A stretch of 20,618 nucleotides of DNA from a virus, in IMG/VR virus record IMGVR_UViG_3300007510_000889, positions 1-20,618 of that record; one strand, 5' to 3'. The notes below the pieces were generated by a model. The model was not told where the DNA came from. It ran no database searches and worked only from the letters and a program-made list of their open reading frames with translations. This document shows, in pieces, positions 283 through 19,352 of this stretch. A program made the translations under genes and the position numbers. Each line of letters starts with the position of its first letter. Within the stretch, counting starts at the first letter, position 1.

Positions 283-3200
283 ATGAGAGATTTAGTAGCT
301 GAAACCCCGGGAAAATTTAAATTTAGTCAAACTGGTGCTGAAACTGGCCCGAGAAATCTCGCTAACGAGGTTGGTTTTAGTCAACAGCTTCAGGCTGGGG
401 GACCTCCATTAACTGAGATGTTTTGGACTCCTAAGGACACAGAAGCATTCATGAAAACTCTTGAGGGATATAAAACTATAGCTAGAAACCCAGGACTTTT
501 GATTGAGGCAACTAATGAATTTGTTTCAGCTCTTCCATCTTTCGGAACTGGTTTAATTGAAGCCGGTCAAGATTTATTTCAGGCTGGTATGAGTGATTTA
601 CCAGGCTCAATAGCCCAAAAATTTCTGCCTCCTTTTATGCGTAAAGATAGAGGTTTAAGTATTAAAGACTATTATGATATTTCTGCTGAGGGATTCCAGC
701 GAGGTTTTGAAAAACTTCCGAGAATCCATCCCAGTAATCCAGAAGCAACAGCTTTAATTATTGAGACAATGTTTGCCCCATTCATAGTAAATATGGAATT
801 GTTTCATAGGCTCTCTGAATCAGATGTTCTTGATGGTGTACCAGAGGAAGATAACATTAGAGGGACATTAAAATTTGTTGGGGATTTATCAAGTTTTTAT
901 TTAGATGCTGGAATTACTGGATTAAAATCCTCGCCGCCATTTTATCGAGCTAAAGGAATTAAACAATTAGCTGAAGGAAAACCCCTAAAAAGTAAAGCAG
1001 ATTATACTAATTTACTTAAGGATATTAAAAAGGATATAAGTAAGGAATTTGATATAGACCCAAAAGACCCGAGACTTAAAACTGCTGAAGGTCGGCAAGA
1101 AATAATTAATGGTATTAAGTCAGATTATGAAGCTCAGGGTTATCCAGTTATCCCAAAAATAATGCGGGATAATCAGATGAATATAAATCTAATGCCGAAA
1201 GAACAAATCGGTGTTACTGGTGCTGATCACGGACGTTTAGCTAAAACTCATTTACATAATTTAATAGATCAAAATACTAAAGCTAGTGAGTTAGCAAGTA
1301 GGGGTGATGTAGGTGCATTAGTATCTGATTATTCTGTAGGTGGGCCGGCAGCTGGGCCTATTATTCAAGCTCTCTCAGAACAAAGTAAGATTGTAAAGCA
1401 ACGTGCAGAAAGGGGTAGTAAAGCTGGTAAGCTGAGAGATGCTGAGGAATTAAAAGCTCGTCAGGAAATAGAACGTCAATATCAAGAAAATAAACCTAAG
1501 GAAACTGGTGGGGCTGCTAATCCAATACTTGGTTTAATGCGGAGACAGAGTGAGTTAATCCGTCAGCGGAATCTTGGAACTGATTCTGTTAAACCGGGAG
1601 AGCAAGCTGTGGCTCGTCAGCAAAGTTTAATGACTGAATTGGATAAAGCTCGAAAGCCGAAGGCCGAAGAAGAAATTCATGCGTATGTAGTTGAACAAAG
1701 GGCTGAACCTAAAGCTCCGTTAAAACAAGCTAAACCCGTTGAACCACTGGTTGAGACTAAGCCTACTCCTGTATTCCACTCAAGTGATATGATTAAGAAG
1801 CATGGCGTGGAATCTCTGGTTGTTGACGGCGTGACTGAATACGATCTTTACGGAAAGCGAAAGTTTAAAACTGAAGAAGCAGCTTACAAGGCTCTTAATA
1901 CCGACAAGAGACTTGTGAAAAAACAACAAGAGATGTTTAAGGATGGGCTTGAGCTTGAGGTTGTAAAGGTTGGGGATGAGTTTCGGTTTGCTGAGAATAT
2001 GGATATGACTCAGGCTGAGCAACGGTTGATTGAAAACTATCTCAGCAAGAAAGGTAAGCCTCAGGAAATGGATTTAGGAGTCGCTGAAAGTGAACTTCGC
2101 GGTTTGGGTGAGCAAGTTAAAGATTGGCATCAGGGCAAACCAGGAATTGATATTGAGATAATTAAAGAACGGATTGTTTCACTTAGTAATAGTTTTGTTC
2201 GGGAAAAGCCCGGAGCGAAAGGAGACTTTCTTGTTGATGCTGGTGATCGAATGCTTCAATTAATCACTGAGCGTCAAGCAGAACTAACCACACCAAAGAG
2301 TGGAAAATATGGCGAGGGTTTGATTAGTGGTCGTAGTCCAGTTAATCCAAAAGTTGATTTTATTTATAACGTAGATGGGAAGGTTTTTCAAGACTTAATT
2401 GAGGCAGTAGATTTTAATGCTGACCTTCGGTTGGGTGGCGTGGTTGAACAGCATCCTAGCGGGGGCTGGATTATTGAGATGAAAAAACCACCGCCAAAAA
2501 CAATTCCCGGAACTGGGCTATTCCTTAAACCATTATTAAATGAACGTGGATCAGTTGATATTTCATTTATGTCTAGTTTCGGTAAACGATTTCTTCGGAA
2601 TAGTAAGGTTAAGAAACCTTTATATCACTTAGCTTATAACCTAGATGTACTTAAGGCTGGATTTGATTTAAGTAAATCACCTGAATTAGGTATTCATTTA
2701 GCTACTAAAGAACAAGCTATTAATATTTTAGGGCGGAATTTAGGTATACCAATTATTATTAATACTAAACGTCCATTACAGTTAGTTGATAAAGGTAACT
2801 TTAGTCCTAATAATATTATCGAACAACTCAGACTAAATAAGATTATTACACAAAGTGAATATATTAAAGCTAGAGAACAGATGCAAAAAGTTATAGAAAA
2901 CATCAGTCCCCATATAATGACCCCAGAAAAATACTTACCTGCCCATAATAAGATTGTTCGGGATTTAATTCTTAAAAAAGGTTATGATTCTGTAAGATAT
3001 AAGAATATAAAAGAACAGCCTTCAGAACATCCCGGACTTAAAAAACGTAAAAATGAATTACTTATTGAAGCAAGAAAAAAAGCTGCTAGAGGTGAAGATG
3101 TTACAGCTATTAGGGATGAAGTAAAACAAATTCAAAAGGATATTCAAAGTAGGCAATTAATGGATTCTTATATTGTAATAGATAAAATTACTGTTAAGAA

Positions 3201-5604
3201 TGCACTTGACCCTAAATTATGGGAAGAGTCACCTACTACTAATACATTTCAACGTATTATTAAAGACCTGAAAACAATCCTTCTTGAACCATTATTAAAT
3301 GAACGTGGCAGCGTGAGTTTCGAAAAGCTTCCACCAGAAAAACTTGAAGCTTTACGGAGACTCCAAGAGGATGCTCGCAGAGCTGGTAAAACAGTTTATG
3401 ACCTGGTTCGAGAAATGGGTGAGAGTGAAGCTGTTGCTAAAGCTATAAGTGAGCTGGCTCGTCAACTATCAAAACGAATAGATATGTCGAAGCCTTCAGT
3501 TGGGTTAGAGGATTTTGAAACTGGTGATGTTATTAGTACTGGAAAAGATCGTAAACGTGGTGAGTATTTAGTCAAACAACCAAAGGTTTACAAAAGTGAG
3601 CTGGATGCTATTCGGGCAGCCAAAGATCCTAAACGAAGCTTTGTTGGTCAAGCAACCAAAGAATACGTTACGACTCCACAGATGATTAAAGAACTTGACT
3701 CGCCATATTATAAGCAACTTCAACGAACTTATTGGGAGACTGAAACTCGTATTGCTGATATGATTAAAGACCATGCTGATGGATTATCTAAGCAAGTTAA
3801 GGGATTAAACAGAAAATCACGTGAGCGAATTGGAACAAATCTTTATTGGCGTCAGAAAGATATTCGGGCGAGGATGGAAAAAGATGGTTTTAAGGAAAGT
3901 GATATTCCAAAACTGACTGAGCGTGAACAACAGTTTGTGGATTATATAGACCCGTTGCTGGAGGATATGGGATTTAGAATTAATCAAGCTAGAGTTAGCT
4001 CTGGGCTTAATCCGATAAAGCTAATACAAGATGATTATTTTACTGTGGCTTATGTAGAAAGTTTTGCTGAACGGATAGGCTTAAGTGCAAATATAATTCG
4101 AGATAATCCAAAAGTTATTAACTCACGATTTGCACGTTTTCTCGAGACTCCTTTCAAATACAAAAAGCGGCGGAGTAAAGAAGGATTGAAGAAACAACTT
4201 AAGTTTGATCCAGTTGAAACATTTGATACTTATATGCGCAGCGCTATTCGGCATGAACAGATGACTCCATTAGCATCGAAAATCCACGCAACACTTAAAC
4301 CACTTAAAACGGGAGAGTTTTATAAAACTAAAAGTGGAAAGACCAAGGAACGATTGTTCATGATGGATAAGGAGAAACCTAATCTTGCTCGTTGGTCGAG
4401 ACGCTGGGCTAATACAATAGCCGGTCGTGATCTTCAGGCAATGGGTACGCTTGTAGATTCTCCAGCAAATAATTTTATCGATATGGCAGCAAGAAAACTT
4501 TCTCGTAATCTGGTTGTTGCACTTATGTCAGGCTCTATTCGTTCAGCAGAGATTCAGGTTGGAGCACTTCGTAATACAAGTGGACGTATTGGCTTAGATT
4601 ATACAGCGTATGGTGTTGCTGAAGCAGCCAGACTGGCAGCCAAAGGAGAATTTACCAAAGTTAAAAACCGCTCAAGAGTGTTGAAAACCAGACTTGCGGA
4701 TATAAGCATGACTGAATTCTTTAGTGGCGTGCGGCGCGGGAAGCGAGCTTTGGCAGCCAAGATCGGTCTTACTCCACTAAAATATATGGATTACTCTACA
4801 GCAGTAGCTACATGGCTTGGAGCTGAAAAGTTTGCTTTAAATAAGATTCAAAAAGCACAAACTACTGGAAAGTTCGGAACGTTAAAAGAACATGGAATAG
4901 AATATTCTAAGAAGCTTAGTCGTGAAGAAATGGCTCGAAGATTCGCTGATGATATTGTAGTTGAGACTCAGGGTTCATCACTGGTTGGTGACATCGCACC
5001 AATTCAACGATCAGCAGTTGGCAAGCTTGTTCATTTGTTTCAGACTTTTACGATCAGTGATTGGAATATGCTTTACAAAGACGTGTTTGGCGTGAATAGA
5101 AAATTATCAAAGAAGCTTAAAGCTAAGCGAATGATTAATTACTTAATCGCCACAACACTTTTAAATATGTTCTTTGAGGACGTGTTAGATATTAATTCAC
5201 CGATGCCAACACCAATCAGGGCTGCAATGAAGTCAGCTGAGGAAGGTAAAAGCGGGGCGGAGATTGCTCTTGATGTAGCCAAGGAAATGGGTGAACCTTT
5301 ACCATTGGTCGGTGGTGCACTTCGTTATGGATTTAGTCCGGCGGGTGCAGTTGTTCAAACATTCGGTGAATTATTTGAAGCCCTTTCAGACAGAAGTAAA
5401 CGAAGTAGTGTGTTGCCCAGAACTTTGGATAGTGGGATTGCGAGAAAAACTGCCTTGGCGGGAGAATCACTTGCTAAGCTTTACGGCATACCATACACTG
5501 GACAGATTGCGAAAAGTGCTAGAGCCGCTAAACGGGGGGAAAGTCCTTATGCGATTATACAAGGATCGTATAGCGGCCCTAAAAAGAAATTTAGGCGTTT
5601 TTAA
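283..5604 (+). CDS. Giant phage polyvalent/ejected virion-type protein with an ADP-ribosyltransferase-like module
   Basis: This 1773-residue protein starts at an ATG preceded by AGGAG. It is not a known enzyme over its whole length. It resembles the very large multi-domain phage proteins carried in the virion and injected with DNA. Residues 1-300 are mixed; about 380-540 are charged and coiled-coil or proline-rich; 749-758 and 1002-1011 each contain PLLNERGSV. Between these two copies, residues about 770-970 look like an ART-PolyVal-type domain: a SKV..KPLYH entry (Y781-H782), GIHLAT (803-808), GYDSVRY (900-906) and DSYIVID (961-967). The canonical YHGT is changed to YHLA, so activity is uncertain. 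From about 1190 on there is a long basic and amphipathic region with hydrophobic stretches near 1410 and 1640, as in LPD-type ejection proteins. The virion role is inferred from size and domain style. The 3' end overlaps the convergent gene by 14 bases. Confidence 0.85.
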   Translation: MRDLVAETPGKFKFSQTGAETGPRNLANEVGFSQQLQAGGPPLTEMFWTPKDTEAFMKTLEGYKTIARNPGLLIEATNEFVSALPSFGTGLIEAGQDLFQAGMSDLPGSIAQKFLPPFMRKDRGLSIKDYYDISAEGFQRGFEKLPRIHPSNPEATALIIETMFAPFIVNMELFHRLSESDVLDGVPEEDNIRGTLKFVGDLSSFYLDAGITGLKSSPPFYRAKGIKQLAEGKPLKSKADYTNLLKDIKKDISKEFDIDPKDPRLKTAEGRQEIINGIKSDYEAQGYPVIPKIMRDNQMNINLMPKEQIGVTGADHGRLAKTHLHNLIDQNTKASELASRGDVGALVSDYSVGGPAAGPIIQALSEQSKIVKQRAERGSKAGKLRDAEELKARQEIERQYQENKPKETGGAANPILGLMRRQSELIRQRNLGTDSVKPGEQAVARQQSLMTELDKARKPKAEEEIHAYVVEQRAEPKAPLKQAKPVEPLVETKPTPVFHSSDMIKKHGVESLVVDGVTEYDLYGKRKFKTEEAAYKALNTDKRLVKKQQEMFKDGLELEVVKVGDEFRFAENMDMTQAEQRLIENYLSKKGKPQEMDLGVAESELRGLGEQVKDWHQGKPGIDIEIIKERIVSLSNSFVREKPGAKGDFLVDAGDRMLQLITERQAELTTPKSGKYGEGLISGRSPVNPKVDFIYNVDGKVFQDLIEAVDFNADLRLGGVVEQHPSGGWIIEMKKPPPKTIPGTGLFLKPLLNERGSVDISFMSSFGKRFLRNSKVKKPLYHLAYNLDVLKAGFDLSKSPELGIHLATKEQAINILGRNLGIPIIINTKRPLQLVDKGNFSPNNIIEQLRLNKIITQSEYIKAREQMQKVIENISPHIMTPEKYLPAHNKIVRDLILKKGYDSVRYKNIKEQPSEHPGLKKRKNELLIEARKKAARGEDVTAIRDEVKQIQKDIQSRQLMDSYIVIDKITVKNALDPKLWEESPTTNTFQRIIKDLKTILLEPLLNERGSVSFEKLPPEKLEALRRLQEDARRAGKTVYDLVREMGESEAVAKAISELARQLSKRIDMSKPSVGLEDFETGDVISTGKDRKRGEYLVKQPKVYKSELDAIRAAKDPKRSFVGQATKEYVTTPQMIKELDSPYYKQLQRTYWETETRIADMIKDHADGLSKQVKGLNRKSRERIGTNLYWRQKDIRARMEKDGFKESDIPKLTEREQQFVDYIDPLLEDMGFRINQARVSSGLNPIKLIQDDYFTVAYVESFAERIGLSANIIRDNPKVINSRFARFLETPFKYKKRRSKEGLKKQLKFDPVETFDTYMRSAIRHEQMTPLASKIHATLKPLKTGEFYKTKSGKTKERLFMMDKEKPNLARWSRRWANTIAGRDLQAMGTLVDSPANNFIDMAARKLSRNLVVALMSGSIRSAEIQVGALRNTSGRIGLDYTAYGVAEAARLAAKGEFTKVKNRSRVLKTRLADISMTEFFSGVRRGKRALAAKIGLTPLKYMDYSTAVATWLGAEKFALNKIQKAQTTGKFGTLKEHGIEYSKKLSREEMARRFADDIVVETQGSSLVGDIAPIQRSAVGKLVHLFQTFTISDWNMLYKDVFGVNRKLSKKLKAKRMINYLIATTLLNMFFEDVLDINSPMPTPIRAAMKSAEEGKSGAEIALDVAKEMGEPLPLVGGALRYGFSPAGAVVQTFGELFEALSDRSKRSSVLPRTLDSGIARKTALAGESLAKLYGIPYTGQIAKSARAAKRGESPYAIIQGSYSGPKKKFRRF
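2528..2549 (+). repeat. Direct repeat, left copy, flanking the ART-like module
   Basis: A 22-bp sequence beginning AACCATTATTAAATGAACGT is identical to 3287-3308. It encodes most of PLLNERG in the giant protein. The following Ser-Val is shared in protein but uses different codons, so DNA identity stops sharply. Confidence 0.9.
2560..3280 (+). other. AT-rich ADP-ribosyltransferase-like domain insertion
   Basis: This part of the giant gene encodes the SKV-KPLYH, GIHLAT, GYDSVRYKN and DSYIVID signatures seen in order in ART-PolyVal-like domains of phage polyvalent proteins. Hand counts of three 60-base lines (2701-2880) give about 28% G+C, against about 38-40% in sampled lines at 1201, 3421 and 3841. 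The compositional step and the bracketing direct repeats suggest the module was acquired. The family call rests on remembered motif order, not on a search. Confidence 0.6.
3287..3308 (+). repeat. Direct repeat, right copy, flanking the ART-like module
   Basis: Identical 22-bp partner of 2528-2549. The offset is 759 bases, exactly 253 codons, so both copies are read in the same frame and deletion between them would keep the giant protein in frame. Confidence 0.9.
5578..5602 (+). terminator. Weak intrinsic terminator at the convergent gene junction
   Basis: CCTAAA and TTTAGG form a 6-bp stem around a 6-base loop, followed by CG and five T on the plus strand. It lies inside the last codons of the giant gene and also covers the 3' end of the opposing gene. 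The stem is short and AT-rich, and on the minus strand no T-run follows it. Confidence 0.5.
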
Positions 5605-5911: not shown

Positions 5912-5924
5912 GCAATTAAATTGC
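5912..5924. repeat. 13-bp palindrome GCAATTAAATTGC, copy 1
   Basis: Perfect inverted repeat with one central base. It lies between the stop of the helicase-like gene and the AAGGGAG ribosome binding site of the 101-residue gene, in a 33-base gap. One of six copies in the leftward block. Confidence 0.9.
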
Positions 5925-7130: not shown

Positions 7131-9611
7131 TCAGTTCTCCAGAACAGAATCTTTTATTATAGTTTCAAGTCGTGTAGCAAGAGTTTGAGTACTGGTTGTG
7201 TCGCTGCTTTTTAATTCTACACAATCCCGTTTTGAAAATGTTCTTGGAAGTACAGATATGTCAGCAGGAACAACAAATTTACGGTTGTCCAAAGTTACTA
7301 GAGGAGTTTCAAGGGCTTCTTTTACGTCCATAAGAATGTTAGCGTGTTCTTGCCAAGGTAGGGATTTAGGAATTTGAAAAACTATTTCATCGTGTTTCTG
7401 TAGAAGCAACTCAACTGAACGGTATTTTTGTCCGCCGTAGTAAATGAGGTTTAATCCACGTTCATTAATTACGTCACCGACAGTTCCTTGAGGAATACAA
7501 CTATAGGCTTCTTTAAAAAGCTTATCACCCCAACGATTCATGAATAAAGTCTTCCGACCCATCAGATTCGTCACAACCCGACCATTACGAAGCATCGAAC
7601 GAACCATTCCGTGGTAGGAATTTCTCACGCCGGGATAGGCCATATGATAACGTTCGACAACCCACTTAGCTTGACTTTCTAGCATCTGATAAAGTAAAGC
7701 AAAACTCCGATAACCCAAATCATAATTAAGTCCGTGATTTGCTTTCTTACCCCAAAATCTTTCATCATGCGTACCATCACCAAGTTGACATGCTTCAGCC
7801 CCATGCTCCACATCGTATTCAGTTGAAACTTCTTCGATAGGTTTCTGGAAAATCAAGGAAGCAGTTAACCGATGAATATCAATACCTTCCTCAAACGCTT
7901 TAATCATCGAGATAATATTACCAACATAAGCAACAATTCGATTCTCAGCCTGTGAAAGATCAATCGCATAACCGACATAGCCCGGATCAATTAAAAAGAA
8001 TTTAAGCAAAGCATGTGGAATGTTCTGGAGGTTCATGCCAGTCCCAAAGATATTTTCGCTAGAAGAGATTCGTGAGAACTTTGTTCCAGCAGGATTAAAT
8101 GAACTTCGCATTCGACTATCCTTGTCAACTTTTACTAACTTACCATCAACTACAGGCAGATAAGTTCCTTTAAGTTTCCGGATTTTACGGATCTTTTGAA
8201 CCAACGTAGCTTCTTTAACACCTTTCCGAGCCAACCGAGTCATAGCAATATCATCAGTCGTTGGTCGTTTTGTTTTGCGATTTTTGTAAGCCTTAAAACC
8301 CAGTGAGCCATAGAAATATTTACTGAGCTGTTGTGGAGAATTAGCATTTAGTTCCTGTCCAGCAGCTTCATTAAGCTTTGCTTGGACTTCAACTTGTTCT
8401 GATTCAAGCCGTTCATTTTCAGCGATCATCCCTTCCACGTCACACAGAATACCGCGTTCTTGCATATAAACAAGAGGCGCAACAATCTTAGTTTGGCGCT
8501 CATAAGTTTTCTCATTCTTCTGTTGCTTTAATCGCTGCTGTTGTTTTGGAAATGCCTCAGCACAAATAAGTGAATCAGTTGCGTTATATTTCCATAACTC
8601 AGACCAACCACCTCCACCAAAGTATTTCTTTCCCTCGTCCTTATAATATTGATGATCTGTCCAGATGCTCGTAATAAAGTCAAGACCCATAGGATAATCA
8701 GGCATAATTATTTTCTGGGCAATCATCGTGTCTTCGGCATTTTTAGTTTTAATTCCATAACGACGGAGTAAAAAGTGTTTATCAAATCCGATGTTTTGCC
8801 CGCCCTTTTTTATACTGGGATTTTCCAGAATCTTTGCTATGCTAAGCATCACGTCAAGTTCCTGGTCAGGAAGAAAGTAGTTATTCTGATCTTGAATAAA
8901 TGGAATCGAAATAGCTTCATCATCACGAAAAACAAATGAGATACATGAAACTTCTTCATTATAGATTTCAATATCAAAATATACGATTGAGCCATTAAGC
9001 CCAGCTTCGTGAGTTTTTTCGAGATAACTTAAACAATCAAAGAAACTAGGATTAATTATAAGTTTTCTGGCTTTTAGTTTAAAGTTTTCAGATGCTGTGC
9101 CTAGAGCACGCCGTAAATCGAATTGAATTAAGAAACGATTTAGGAACTGGAACTTTGGCGGGATAACTGTAGATGGATGAAGGCATGGAATGATCCACTT
9201 TCCAGGTAGTTCTGGGCAAGTAAGTACAGAACCACGCCACTTAGTTATTCCACTACGACCAGTTAAAACTGCTAAAGCATAATTACCACAAGCTACAATG
9301 GCTTTAGTTTTTACTTTCTTAAGTTCTTCAATTAAGTTATCTTTATGCCACTGACCAATCCCGCTGAATGTCATGCTTTTTAAGTTAAGATAATTACTGA
9401 CATAATGATCGAGGTCTTTGGCATAGTTGGTTAAATAACAGTCATGTCGCATAAGATTTACAGCCTGAAGATTCTCATTCAACTCCCGACCTGCCGGACC
9501 AACGAAAGGTCTTCCACTTTGAATATCTGTTTTCCCAGGCTGCTCACCAACAATAGCGATTTTAGCTTTTAGTGGATCGCCTTCCGGTCTTACATAAGTT
9601 TTTGTTTTCAT
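7131..9611 (-). CDS. Family A DNA polymerase with N-terminal uracil-DNA-glycosylase-like domain
   Basis: The 826-residue replicative polymerase has three parts. Residues 20-175 resemble family 4/SPO1-polymerase-related uracil-DNA glycosylase: GEQPGKTD (22-29), GRPFVGPAG (33-41) and LHPSTV (144-149); the usual N-terminal iron-sulphur CxxC is absent. Residues 205-350 are a 3'-5' exonuclease with D213/E215, N273/D277 and Y342/D346, so proofreading is probably active. The polymerase core has motif A DLSQAE (D551, E556), motif B R618-K622-H626-Y630 and motif C QKHDE (738-742). All catalytic acids are present. The residue matching E. coli Phe762 is His626, an unusual choice. The start ATG has AAAGGA seven bases upstream. 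The gene follows the DnaQ-like exonuclease and precedes the helicase. SPO1 polymerase is the known precedent for this kind of fusion. Confidence 0.95.
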   Translation of the reverse strand: MKTKTYVRPEGDPLKAKIAIVGEQPGKTDIQSGRPFVGPAGRELNENLQAVNLMRHDCYLTNYAKDLDHYVSNYLNLKSMTFSGIGQWHKDNLIEELKKVKTKAIVACGNYALAVLTGRSGITKWRGSVLTCPELPGKWIIPCLHPSTVIPPKFQFLNRFLIQFDLRRALGTASENFKLKARKLIINPSFFDCLSYLEKTHEAGLNGSIVYFDIEIYNEEVSCISFVFRDDEAISIPFIQDQNNYFLPDQELDVMLSIAKILENPSIKKGGQNIGFDKHFLLRRYGIKTKNAEDTMIAQKIIMPDYPMGLDFITSIWTDHQYYKDEGKKYFGGGGWSELWKYNATDSLICAEAFPKQQQRLKQQKNEKTYERQTKIVAPLVYMQERGILCDVEGMIAENERLESEQVEVQAKLNEAAGQELNANSPQQLSKYFYGSLGFKAYKNRKTKRPTTDDIAMTRLARKGVKEATLVQKIRKIRKLKGTYLPVVDGKLVKVDKDSRMRSSFNPAGTKFSRISSSENIFGTGMNLQNIPHALLKFFLIDPGYVGYAIDLSQAENRIVAYVGNIISMIKAFEEGIDIHRLTASLIFQKPIEEVSTEYDVEHGAEACQLGDGTHDERFWGKKANHGLNYDLGYRSFALLYQMLESQAKWVVERYHMAYPGVRNSYHGMVRSMLRNGRVVTNLMGRKTLFMNRWGDKLFKEAYSCIPQGTVGDVINERGLNLIYYGGQKYRSVELLLQKHDEIVFQIPKSLPWQEHANILMDVKEALETPLVTLDNRKFVVPADISVLPRTFSKRDCVELKSSDTTSTQTLATRLETIIKDSVLEN

Positions 9612-11590: not shown

Positions 11591-11603
11591 GCAATTTAAT
11601 TGC
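11591..11603. repeat. 13-bp palindrome GCAATTTAATTGC, copy 2
   Basis: The palindrome contains the TAA stop of the methyltransferase gene (11596-11598) and ends 23 bases before the ATG of the ClpX-type zinc-finger gene. Confidence 0.9.
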
Positions 11604-12972: not shown

Positions 12973-13186
12973 TTATACTCTCCTTTAACATTTTCAATAG
13001 TTCAGCTTTTGTAACAGCTTCTAATGGATTCTTTTTTACCCGGGCCTTGGTTTTTCTCTTGGCTCGAATAGTAAACTTAGTAATCTTTTTGGTTAATCGA
13101 GATTGTCTAATCTTACGAATCAAGTTAAAAGCATCGGCTTTGGGCATCTCACTAATTGATATACAGAGATCATCTATAGTAGCCAT
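12965..13186 (-). CDS. Small basic protein of unknown function
   Basis: 73 residues. The first half, MATIDDLCISISEMP and on to IRKIRQSR, is helical; residues 34-55 are strongly basic (TKKITKFTIRAKRKTKARVK), and the end is a short helix rich in Lys, Leu and Glu. This suggests nucleic-acid or protein binding. I have seen phage hypotheticals with the same opening next to ParB-MTase genes, but know no function. AGGAG lies seven bases before the ATG. The end overlaps the methyltransferase start by 8 bases. Confidence 0.7.
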   Translation of the reverse strand: MATIDDLCISISEMPKADAFNLIRKIRQSRLTKKITKFTIRAKRKTKARVKKNPLEAVTKAELLKMLKESINE

Positions 13187-13618: not shown

Positions 13619-13631
13619 GCAATTAAATTGC
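13619..13631. repeat. 13-bp palindrome GCAATTAAATTGC, copy 3
   Basis: Abuts the terminator hairpin at 13632-13674 on one side and the GGAAGG ribosome binding site on the other. Confidence 0.9.
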
Positions 13632-16732: not shown

Positions 16733-16745
16733 GCAATTAAATTGC
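16733..16745. repeat. 13-bp palindrome GCAATTAAATTGC, copy 4
   Basis: Lies 20 bases before the ATG of the 104-residue gene and 13 bases after the ligase stop. On the minus strand it follows directly a hairpin with ATTAGA/TCTAAT arms plus GAG/CTC. Confidence 0.9.
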
Positions 16746-16758
16746 ATTAGAGTCGAGT

Positions 16759-17640
16759 TTAACTAACCTCATCTAATGGATTAATAAATTTAGTTTCTGG
16801 AGCCCGCTCAACAAGCTCGAGGAAAACTCCGCTTTTTGGTTTACCGCTTGCCCAACGATGCTGATAGCCGACTTTACAGTCGAATTTTGTTAACGAGAAT
16901 CGCCTGAGCCACAGATCGTGACGCTCATCGTCCGAAAGTGAGAATGAACCAACTTCAAATTCAAAGTCATCAGTTGAACAGATAATCGCACCAATTGTTC
17001 CTTTGTATTTGCCCGAGCCTTCAACAAAACCAGTTATTTTATAAGTGTCACTTTTCTTCGGCTTGAATTTCATCGCCCATATTGAACGGCGACGAAGATA
17101 AGGAGCATCAAAATGTCTCACGATGATTCCCTCATAACCCAGTTTAATATATTCGTTAAAAACCTGCCGAATCTCTTCCAGCGTCCAGACAATTTTAACA
17201 GGGACGATTTTAAGATTCGGACCAAGCAAGGGTTTTAATTTACTAAGCTCGAGTAAGCGTTTAGCCTGAACCTTTTCTTCGTTAACTATATCAAACAGAT
17301 GATAATGCATCTGGTCGTGTTCGGGATTCAGATTAACTGTTCGACCAACAATCGAATGGATGTCTTCGAATGACATTCCGTGACGATAAAGTTCTCCGTC
17401 AAGTTCGATTGGCTTGTGAAGTTTTTTGGCTAAGTCTTCGAGTTGTCGCTGAATTAGCGGGAGACTTGTGATAGGATTATCTTCGCTGGAAAACATTACT
17501 GCATATGGGTCGATCAATAATGCTCTGCAACGTTCCCCATCAAGTTTAGGCTGAACTGCATATGGCGGCTGCCATTTTGCGAGTCGTTTTTCTTCGAATG
17601 GATAGCACAGTTGGATGTTTTTTCTTTTACCCAAAGCCAT
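16759..17640 (-). CDS. ATP-dependent DNA ligase
   Basis: Seals nicks in phage DNA using ATP. The nucleotidyltransferase motifs are all present: KLDGER with nucleophile K32 (motif I), IELDGEL at 78-84 (III), HLFDI (IIIa), YEGIIVR (IV) and WAMKFKPKK (V). An OB-fold segment, ITGFVEGSGKYKGTIG, follows. At 293 residues it is a compact phage-type ligase. The annotated ATG directly abuts AAAGGAG, which is too close; TTG at 17634, two codons on, has a six-base spacing and may be the true start. The gene lies just after a terminator, so it needs its own promoter or read-through. No obvious promoter is seen in the 35-base gap. Confidence 0.93.
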   Translation of the reverse strand: MALGKRKNIQLCYPFEEKRLAKWQPPYAVQPKLDGERCRALLIDPYAVMFSSEDNPITSLPLIQRQLEDLAKKLHKPIELDGELYRHGMSFEDIHSIVGRTVNLNPEHDQMHYHLFDIVNEEKVQAKRLLELSKLKPLLGPNLKIVPVKIVWTLEEIRQVFNEYIKLGYEGIIVRHFDAPYLRRRSIWAMKFKPKKSDTYKITGFVEGSGKYKGTIGAIICSTDDFEFEVGSFSLSDDERHDLWLRRFSLTKFDCKVGYQHRWASGKPKSGVFLELVERAPETKFINPLDEVS

Positions 17641-18164: not shown

Positions 18165-18557
18165 TTAAGAATTCAATTCATTTAATAATGCTTGTTTGTC
18201 GAAAGCTGAGAGTTTATTAATAAGTTTACGAGCATATGTAAGTTTTTTTCGTTTTGTTTTGGGCTTGCTTGAATTAAGCCGGGCTTTACAGATTTTCAAT
18301 CGTTCGTCACGGAATGCTAGTTTTCGATCCAACACTTTATAACGATACTTAAGTCGATCAAGTTTTTGGGTCTGAGCCCATTCAAGTTTACGAATAAGTT
18401 TAAGTTTCTTGGCATGCTTTTTGCATTGTTGCTTAAGCAATAAAAGCTGGCTTCGCATGAAGTGTTCTGGCGTGTTAAGAAGTAACGGGCGTTTCGGTAT
18501 TGGTAAAGTTGCTTGTTGGTCACTGTAATGGTTTAAATAACTTTGTTGTATTAGCAT
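18165..18557 (-). CDS. Very basic, coiled-coil-like unknown protein
   Basis: 130 residues from ATG 18557 (GGAG seven bases upstream); a frame extending to GTG 18665 has no ribosome binding site and overlaps a better-supported coding frame. The protein has a polar, Gln/Asn/Pro-rich start, then about 90 residues heavy in Lys, Arg and Leu, such as CKKHAKKLKLIRKLEW and KPKTKRKKLTYARK. It may form helical, nucleic-acid-binding structure. It is the last gene before the P1/P2 promoter region, and no terminator is seen after it. No family recognised. Confidence 0.65.
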   Translation of the reverse strand: MLIQQSYLNHYSDQQATLPIPKRPLLLNTPEHFMRSQLLLLKQQCKKHAKKLKLIRKLEWAQTQKLDRLKYRYKVLDRKLAFRDERLKICKARLNSSKPKTKRKKLTYARKLINKLSAFDKQALLNELNS

Positions 18558-18558
18558 A

Positions 18559-18755
18559 TTAGTTCTCCAGTTGTTTAACGTTAAAATTATCTTTTTGGCC
18601 GTAGTAATTAGCCCTGACACTTGTGTAGTTTCGTCCAAGCTTTTTAGCGAGAAGTCCAACTGCACAATTTAACGCTTTTTTTGGCGGGTAGGTGAACGGA
18701 TTTTAAACTGGCAAAGCTCGCCATAGTTGTTTAGGGTTACAAGAAAGTTTTTCAT
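18559..18755 (-). CDS. Small protein apparently made by -1 frameshifting at A AAA AAG
   Basis: From ATG 18755 the zero frame gives 28 residues and stops at 18669. At codons CAA AAA AAG the sequence A AAA AAG (18675-18681) is the dnaX-type slippery heptamer in correct phase. Slipping -1 continues ALNCAVGLLAKKLGRNYTSV and on to TAA at 18559-18561, one base before the next ATG, giving 65 residues. The -1 frame has no start codon of its own after its previous stop, yet reads like a protein (GLLAKKLGRN, RANYYGQKDNF) and fills an otherwise empty 110-base gap that contains the next gene's ribosome binding site. A missing A in the homopolymer would look the same. The start overlaps the upstream gene as ATGA. 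Function unknown; the sequence looks like a small DNA-binding protein. Confidence 0.65.
18675..18681 (-). other. Candidate -1 slippery heptamer A AAA AAG
   Basis: In phase with the frame from ATG 18755, two codons before its stop. This is the same heptamer as in E. coli dnaX. I see no clear upstream Shine-Dalgarno stimulator or downstream stem-loop. Confidence 0.55.
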
Positions 18756-19114
18756 GTGGTTTCTTCTTTCGACTGCTCCTTATGCAATTTAATTGCGGAA
18801 GGGGTGTTGATGTCGATTTTCATTAACTCGTAAGCTATGTCGATTATCGGTTTTGGCTCGGTCAGTTCAGTTATAATCTGTTTAAGTGTTTGCTTAATTA
18901 TTTTCATATTAGCTTCCGACACAACTTCTTCTGGCTCACTGGACTGAACAAATTCATTAGCCAGTTTAGTCAATAATTTTTTAGCTTGCATAATACCGAC
19001 CACTACTGAGCTATAAGTCAAGTAGTCTGGCTTGTGAACTAATTCCCGTAATTCGTTCATCGCGTCATTAAATGTCTGTCCTTTCATTTCTTTCGTTTCT
19101 GTTTTTGTGTTCAT
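18752..19114 (-). CDS. Unknown helical protein
   Basis: 120 residues from ATG 19114, which is preceded by AAAGGAG with six bases spacing; an upstream extension would lie in another gene. Helical throughout: TFNDAMNELRELVHKPD, VVVGIMQAKKLLTKLANEF and MKIIKQTLKQIITEL; ends acidic and polar. No catalytic motif, membrane segment or cysteine pair. A palindrome copy (18784-18796) is inside the last codons and encodes the tail AIKLHK, so the extreme C terminus may be a by-product of the element. TAA of the preceding gene is one base before the ATG, and its own stop overlaps the next start as ATGA. Confidence 0.65.
   Translation of the reverse strand: MNTKTETKEMKGQTFNDAMNELRELVHKPDYLTYSSVVVGIMQAKKLLTKLANEFVQSSEPEEVVSEANMKIIKQTLKQIITELTEPKPIIDIAYELMKIDINTPSAIKLHKEQSKEETT
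18784..18796. repeat. 13-bp palindrome GCAATTTAATTGC, copy 5
   Basis: Inside the 3' end of the 120-residue gene, 28 bases before the ATG of the frameshift gene. AAGGAG follows it on the minus strand, too far from that ATG for an ordinary ribosome binding site. Confidence 0.9.
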
Positions 19115-19339: not shown

Positions 19340-19352
19340 GCAATTAAATTGC
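19340..19352. repeat. 13-bp palindrome GCAATTAAATTGC, copy 6
   Basis: Lies seven bases after the stop of the 295-residue gene and 14 before the next ATG. On the minus strand it follows a hairpin with ATGAGG/CCTCAT arms whose 3' arm abuts the palindrome. Confidence 0.9.

Follow-up and report, generated by a model that had tools for sequence, protein, structure and literature searches.

In the dnaX gene of E. coli, the heptamer A AAA AAG stands in phase with a stop codon close behind it, and frameshifting there yields a shorter second product. Among phages, most known examples of frameshifting are head and tail genes. When stimulated, A AAA AAG ranks with the most shift-prone heptamers in E. 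coli, where heptamers without stimulators reach at most about ten times the background of 0.055% (PMC4066793). In a GeneTack survey covering more than 1,100 prokaryotic genomes, frame transitions seen in a single sequence and confirmed by homology were interpreted as sequencing errors or indels (PMC3711429). Here, we describe a small phage gene split between two frames at the same heptamer and conclude, with a probability of roughly 60%, that the split most likely reflects a recent and probably ordinary loss of one base in an A-run.

A gene split between two frames

The source record, IMGVR_UViG_3300007510_000889 (positions 1 to 20,618), is a 20.6-kb IMG/VR virus contig, and we refer to this whole stretch of 20,618 nucleotides as the window. 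The split gene is on the minus strand, and its parts and neighbors are the following:

18752..19114, minus strand: upstream gene, 120 aa from ATG; its stop and the split-gene start overlap (ATGA)
18672..18755, minus strand: zero-frame segment MKNFLVTLNNYGELCQFKIRSPTRQKKR, ATG plus 27 codons; covers the two N-terminal strands in the family profile described below
18676..18682, minus strand: seven-A run (T's on the plus strand)
18675..18681, minus strand: junction heptamer A AAA AAG, in zero-frame phase
18669..18671, minus strand: zero-frame stop TAA
18559..18675, minus strand: −1 frame segment ALNCAVGLLAKKLGRNYTSVRANYYGQKDNFNVKQLEN*, stop included, without a start codon; E 1.3e-5 to the family profile built without window sequence
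18165..18557, minus strand: downstream gene, 130 aa; in frame with the zero-frame segment of the split gene and open from 18668 onward

The zero frame starts at the ATG at 18755, reads MKNFLVTLNNYGELCQFKIRSPTRQKKR over 28 sense codons and ends at the TAA at 18671-18669, with a single codon (CGT) between the heptamer and the stop. Reading in −1 across the junction gives ..QKK-ALNCAVGLLAKKLGRNYTSVRANYYGQKDNFNVKQLEN*, whose TAA at 18561-18559 falls one base before the ATG of the downstream gene (18557). A first-pass annotation had described this layout without stating the strand, and we found the 28-codon zero frame, the startless −1 frame ending one base before the next gene and the dnaX-type heptamer in correct phase (18681-18675) to be as it reported. 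A separate internal start serving the −1 half was rejected, there being no ATG, GTG or TTG in the −1 frame upstream of the conserved sequence. Reading through the zero-frame TAA would lead into the open frame of the downstream gene; as it is the −1 frame that carries the family match, this possibility was rejected. The downstream-gene frame is open at 18165-18668, spanning the entire −1 segment, and a mechanical ORF caller therefore yields a misleading 166-aa GTG ORF; no family was found for the downstream 130-aa gene.

Genome context

The split gene lies within a tightly packed early/replication block on the minus strand. Judging from the translations and the gene order of Desulfofustis phage LS06-2018-MD01, which matches that of the window and whose polymerase is 39.7% identical, the block appears to encode a DNA polymerase, a primase/helicase, a ParB-methyltransferase, a RecA-like ATPase, a nuclease and an ATP-dependent ligase. 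Convergent with the replication genes, a plus-strand block contains a 1773-residue protein (283-5604), the C-terminal part of which matches relatives from about residue 990; the remainder had no match among the contigs compared.

The palindrome GCAATTWAATTGC occurs in six exact copies (5912-5924, 11591-11603, 13619-13631, 16733-16745, 18784-18796 and 19340-19352), none being expected in shuffles. On the minus strand, most copies are followed within a few bases by a Shine-Dalgarno-like AAGG stretch. The three copies within the overlap with L005, a second contig of the same species, are also present in that contig; the more distant relatives retrieved had none. The palindrome is possibly an operator, or a leader hairpin protecting or processing the transcript.

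Coding content and family membership of the two halves

Codon usage favored the zero frame in the head of the gene and the −1 frame in the tail, the latter scoring +3.5 vs. −9.3 and −29.5 in the other two frames. When the joined sequence was searched against contigs related via the ligase gene, two weak, nearly full-length and continuous matches were obtained. Iterating over these contigs and those related through DNA polymerase resulted in a coherent family, and additional members came from a scan using part of the family. Against a profile that excluded all window sequence, the joined 65 aa covered positions 3-64 of 66 (E 7e-9), the −1 half still matched by itself, and the zero-frame half by itself remained below the threshold. 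By codon-usage score and protein-family match, the coding nature of the −1 tail exceeds chance, and its description in the first-pass annotation as protein-like was borne out. The combined evidence supports the reading that the two segments encode one protein joined at the A-run, and by profile the predicted 65-aa product belongs over its full length to an undescribed family of ~64-residue phage proteins.

The family consists of small phage early-region proteins of about 64 aa with a beta-beta-alpha-alpha-beta arrangement, normally encoded in a single continuous frame. For the protein of the split gene, Pfam and PHROGs gave no match worth keeping, and a narrower family alignment used as the query gave no family member among bacterial or archaeal genomes. 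Two hypothetical proteins of Methanosarcina virus MetMV, AZF89982 and AZF89980, belong to the family by profile (E 1.5e-7 and 9e-11), and the family therefore extends to viruses of archaea; the two form a tandem pair (L085:2287-2731). The analysis thus defines a small phage family, which should be annotated as one protein.

The family structure was confidently predicted as one small domain (pLDDT 96.5) with strands at 3-11 and 14-22, helices at 25-40 and 44-51 and a strand at 59-63, and the junction falls at the beginning of helix 1. Because the domain is cut at this point, the 28-residue product would amount to a beta hairpin plus a short tail; lacking the two helices and the final strand, it could not adopt the family fold. 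With the junction inside one small domain, the two-product logic of the dnaX and phage (lambda G-GT) frameshifts does not fit. In comparison with PDB folds, the best score was for a eukaryotic L18A-type ribosomal protein (Z 7.7), with archaeal LX lower and T7 Gp2 at Z 5.6; these scores are within the range of a common arrangement, and we thus claim no function.

Continuity of the gene in relatives

The gene was one open frame in all 20 distinct related viral contigs, and none of the 20 had an in-phase A AAA AAN heptamer within it. Half of them (10/20) had been recruited through neighboring replication genes rather than the split gene itself and, not having been selected as unbroken, are unbiased for splitting. 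Both tandem copies in MetMV were continuous as well, leaving the window copy, broken at 18675, as the only family member not in one continuous frame. Consistently, a search with stop-to-stop fragments gave the strong partial match typical of a split gene in the window only. The break is thus present in a single sequence with continuous homologues, the pattern of a singleton frame transition.

The first-pass annotation had proposed looking for the heptamer and the split frames in relatives, where we found neither (0/20 each), and had named single-frame relatives with eight A's as evidence against a programmed shift. The single frame was seen throughout; the relatives, about 19-31% identical to the joined protein (eight compared), are distant and therefore do not show eight A's at the junction site. 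Given this distance, the split and its slippery site may have been acquired very recently. Searches of viral contigs with the joined protein, three neighboring genes and a DNA pattern allowing a variable gap at the run returned no sequence from this or a close species that covers the junction, and the base loss is therefore inferred. The only genome match of the DNA pattern, in Persicobacter (L087), showed no similarity beyond 27 bases and was discarded as chance.

Frameshift-site features at the A-run

The junction has a slippery heptamer of the type X XXY YYZ in zero-frame phase, but it discriminates little, as a seven-A run with G after it has an in-phase slippery heptamer (AAAAAAA or AAAAAAG) in two of the three phases, and losing any one base in such a run should tend to mimic a frameshift site. 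When one-base losses were simulated in the A-runs of the window's genes, 17.6% were followed by a stop within two codons. The same in-phase A AAA AAG is found at 8811 in the DNA polymerase gene and at 13037 in a 73-aa gene, both continuous. Neither the heptamer nor the nearby stop is thus beyond chance. Neither class of stimulator was found: no Shine-Dalgarno-like motif was present within 25 nt upstream of the heptamer, and the downstream RNA structure was no better than that of shuffles (fold z 0.02 and −0.48). The seven-A run is among the longest homopolymer runs of the window, and six further 7-base A/T runs lie, on either strand, within intact genes.

Origin of the break

A one-base loss in the A-run of the sequenced variant would have moved the second half into the −1 frame. 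Ribosomes would then yield a 28-residue nonfunctional fragment, and small amounts of full-length protein may still arise by leaky −1 slippage on A AAA AAG, as an adventitious rescue rather than evolved regulation. Such a loss is supported by the continuous relatives, the profile match of the joined product, the lack of obvious stimulators and the chance-like distance to the stop, and it would be recent because the −1 tail is still intact. The tail also counts against it: being fully intact and coding-like in codon usage, it implies that the break is very young or that the full protein is still produced. A further opposing point is the high shift-proneness of A AAA AAG in E. coli when stimulated. 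Second in our ranking, though rather unlikely, is a consensus or assembly error, in which the gene of the virus is continuous and the A-run count of the contig is off by one. This is the sole broken gene found in the tightly packed contig, the site is one of its longest homopolymer runs, and the remainder of the gene is intact. Against an error, L005, which ends at 17312, short of the split gene, was 99.83% identical to the window over 6,317 bases with zero indels, and three 7-base A/T runs agreed between the two; a run-length error is for this reason less likely than a real mutation, and the base was presumably lost in the virus and not in the consensus.

A lineage-specific programmed −1 frameshift on A AAA AAG, setting the amount of the 65-aa protein, whether or not the 28-aa product is also functional, seems improbable to us. 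It would be in keeping with the in-phase heptamer and its stop one codon on, the intact, coding-like −1 frame and the full-length family match of the joined product only, but it is opposed by the lack of split or heptamer in any relative, the failure to find a stimulator, the cut through one small predicted domain, the presence of the same in-phase heptamer in intact genes of the window and the low shifting, within about tenfold of background, of unstimulated heptamers in E. coli (PMC4066793). We place slightly lower still an unstimulated shift of this lineage that has recently become the normal route and keeps the protein at a low level by obligatory slippage within the 64-residue domain. Of the frameshifted 65-residue protein suggested by the first-pass annotation, one protein encoded in both frames and joined at the A-run is thus retained, whereas a programmed shift is not supported. 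We give very little weight to slippage at the A-run, whether transcriptional or as reversible replication slippage (phase variation), by which a fraction of transcripts or genomes would be continuous. A-runs are slippage-prone for both RNA and DNA polymerases (PMC1088944, PMC3711429), but a large share of the bacterial genomes surveyed show selection against slippage at nine A/T and productive slippage is apparent at eight A/T in some genomes (PMC1088944), making seven short, and the six other 7-base runs of the window sit in intact genes.

Comparison with known systems

The locus resembles dnaX in having the same A AAA AAG in phase and a zero-frame stop close behind. It differs in that neither an upstream Shine-Dalgarno-like element nor a notable downstream stem was found, the arrangement is not conserved in relatives, and the −1 frame here supplies most of a single small domain, while the dnaX shift makes a shorter second product. 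Like the lambda G-GT tail chaperone, it is a phage gene whose two frames connect through −1; unlike G-GT, it is located in the early/replication region, encodes a single 64-residue domain and does not adjoin a tape-measure gene, and its split is not conserved. If the shift were programmed after all, the gene would be unusual among phage cases in lying outside head and tail genes. A textbook heptamer followed by an intact −1 frame is also expected after a one-base loss in an A-run before G, and since such a loss mimics a slippery site, comparison with homologues is needed before a programmed frameshift is called. AZF89982 and AZF89980 of MetMV, from the same small-protein family, differ from the window copy in being continuous frames and two tandem copies. 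The singleton transitions of the GeneTack survey (PMC3711429) are similar in being confined to one sequence, at a homopolymer site, with continuous homologues validating the joined product; they come from bacterial chromosomes, and the present case from a phage contig.
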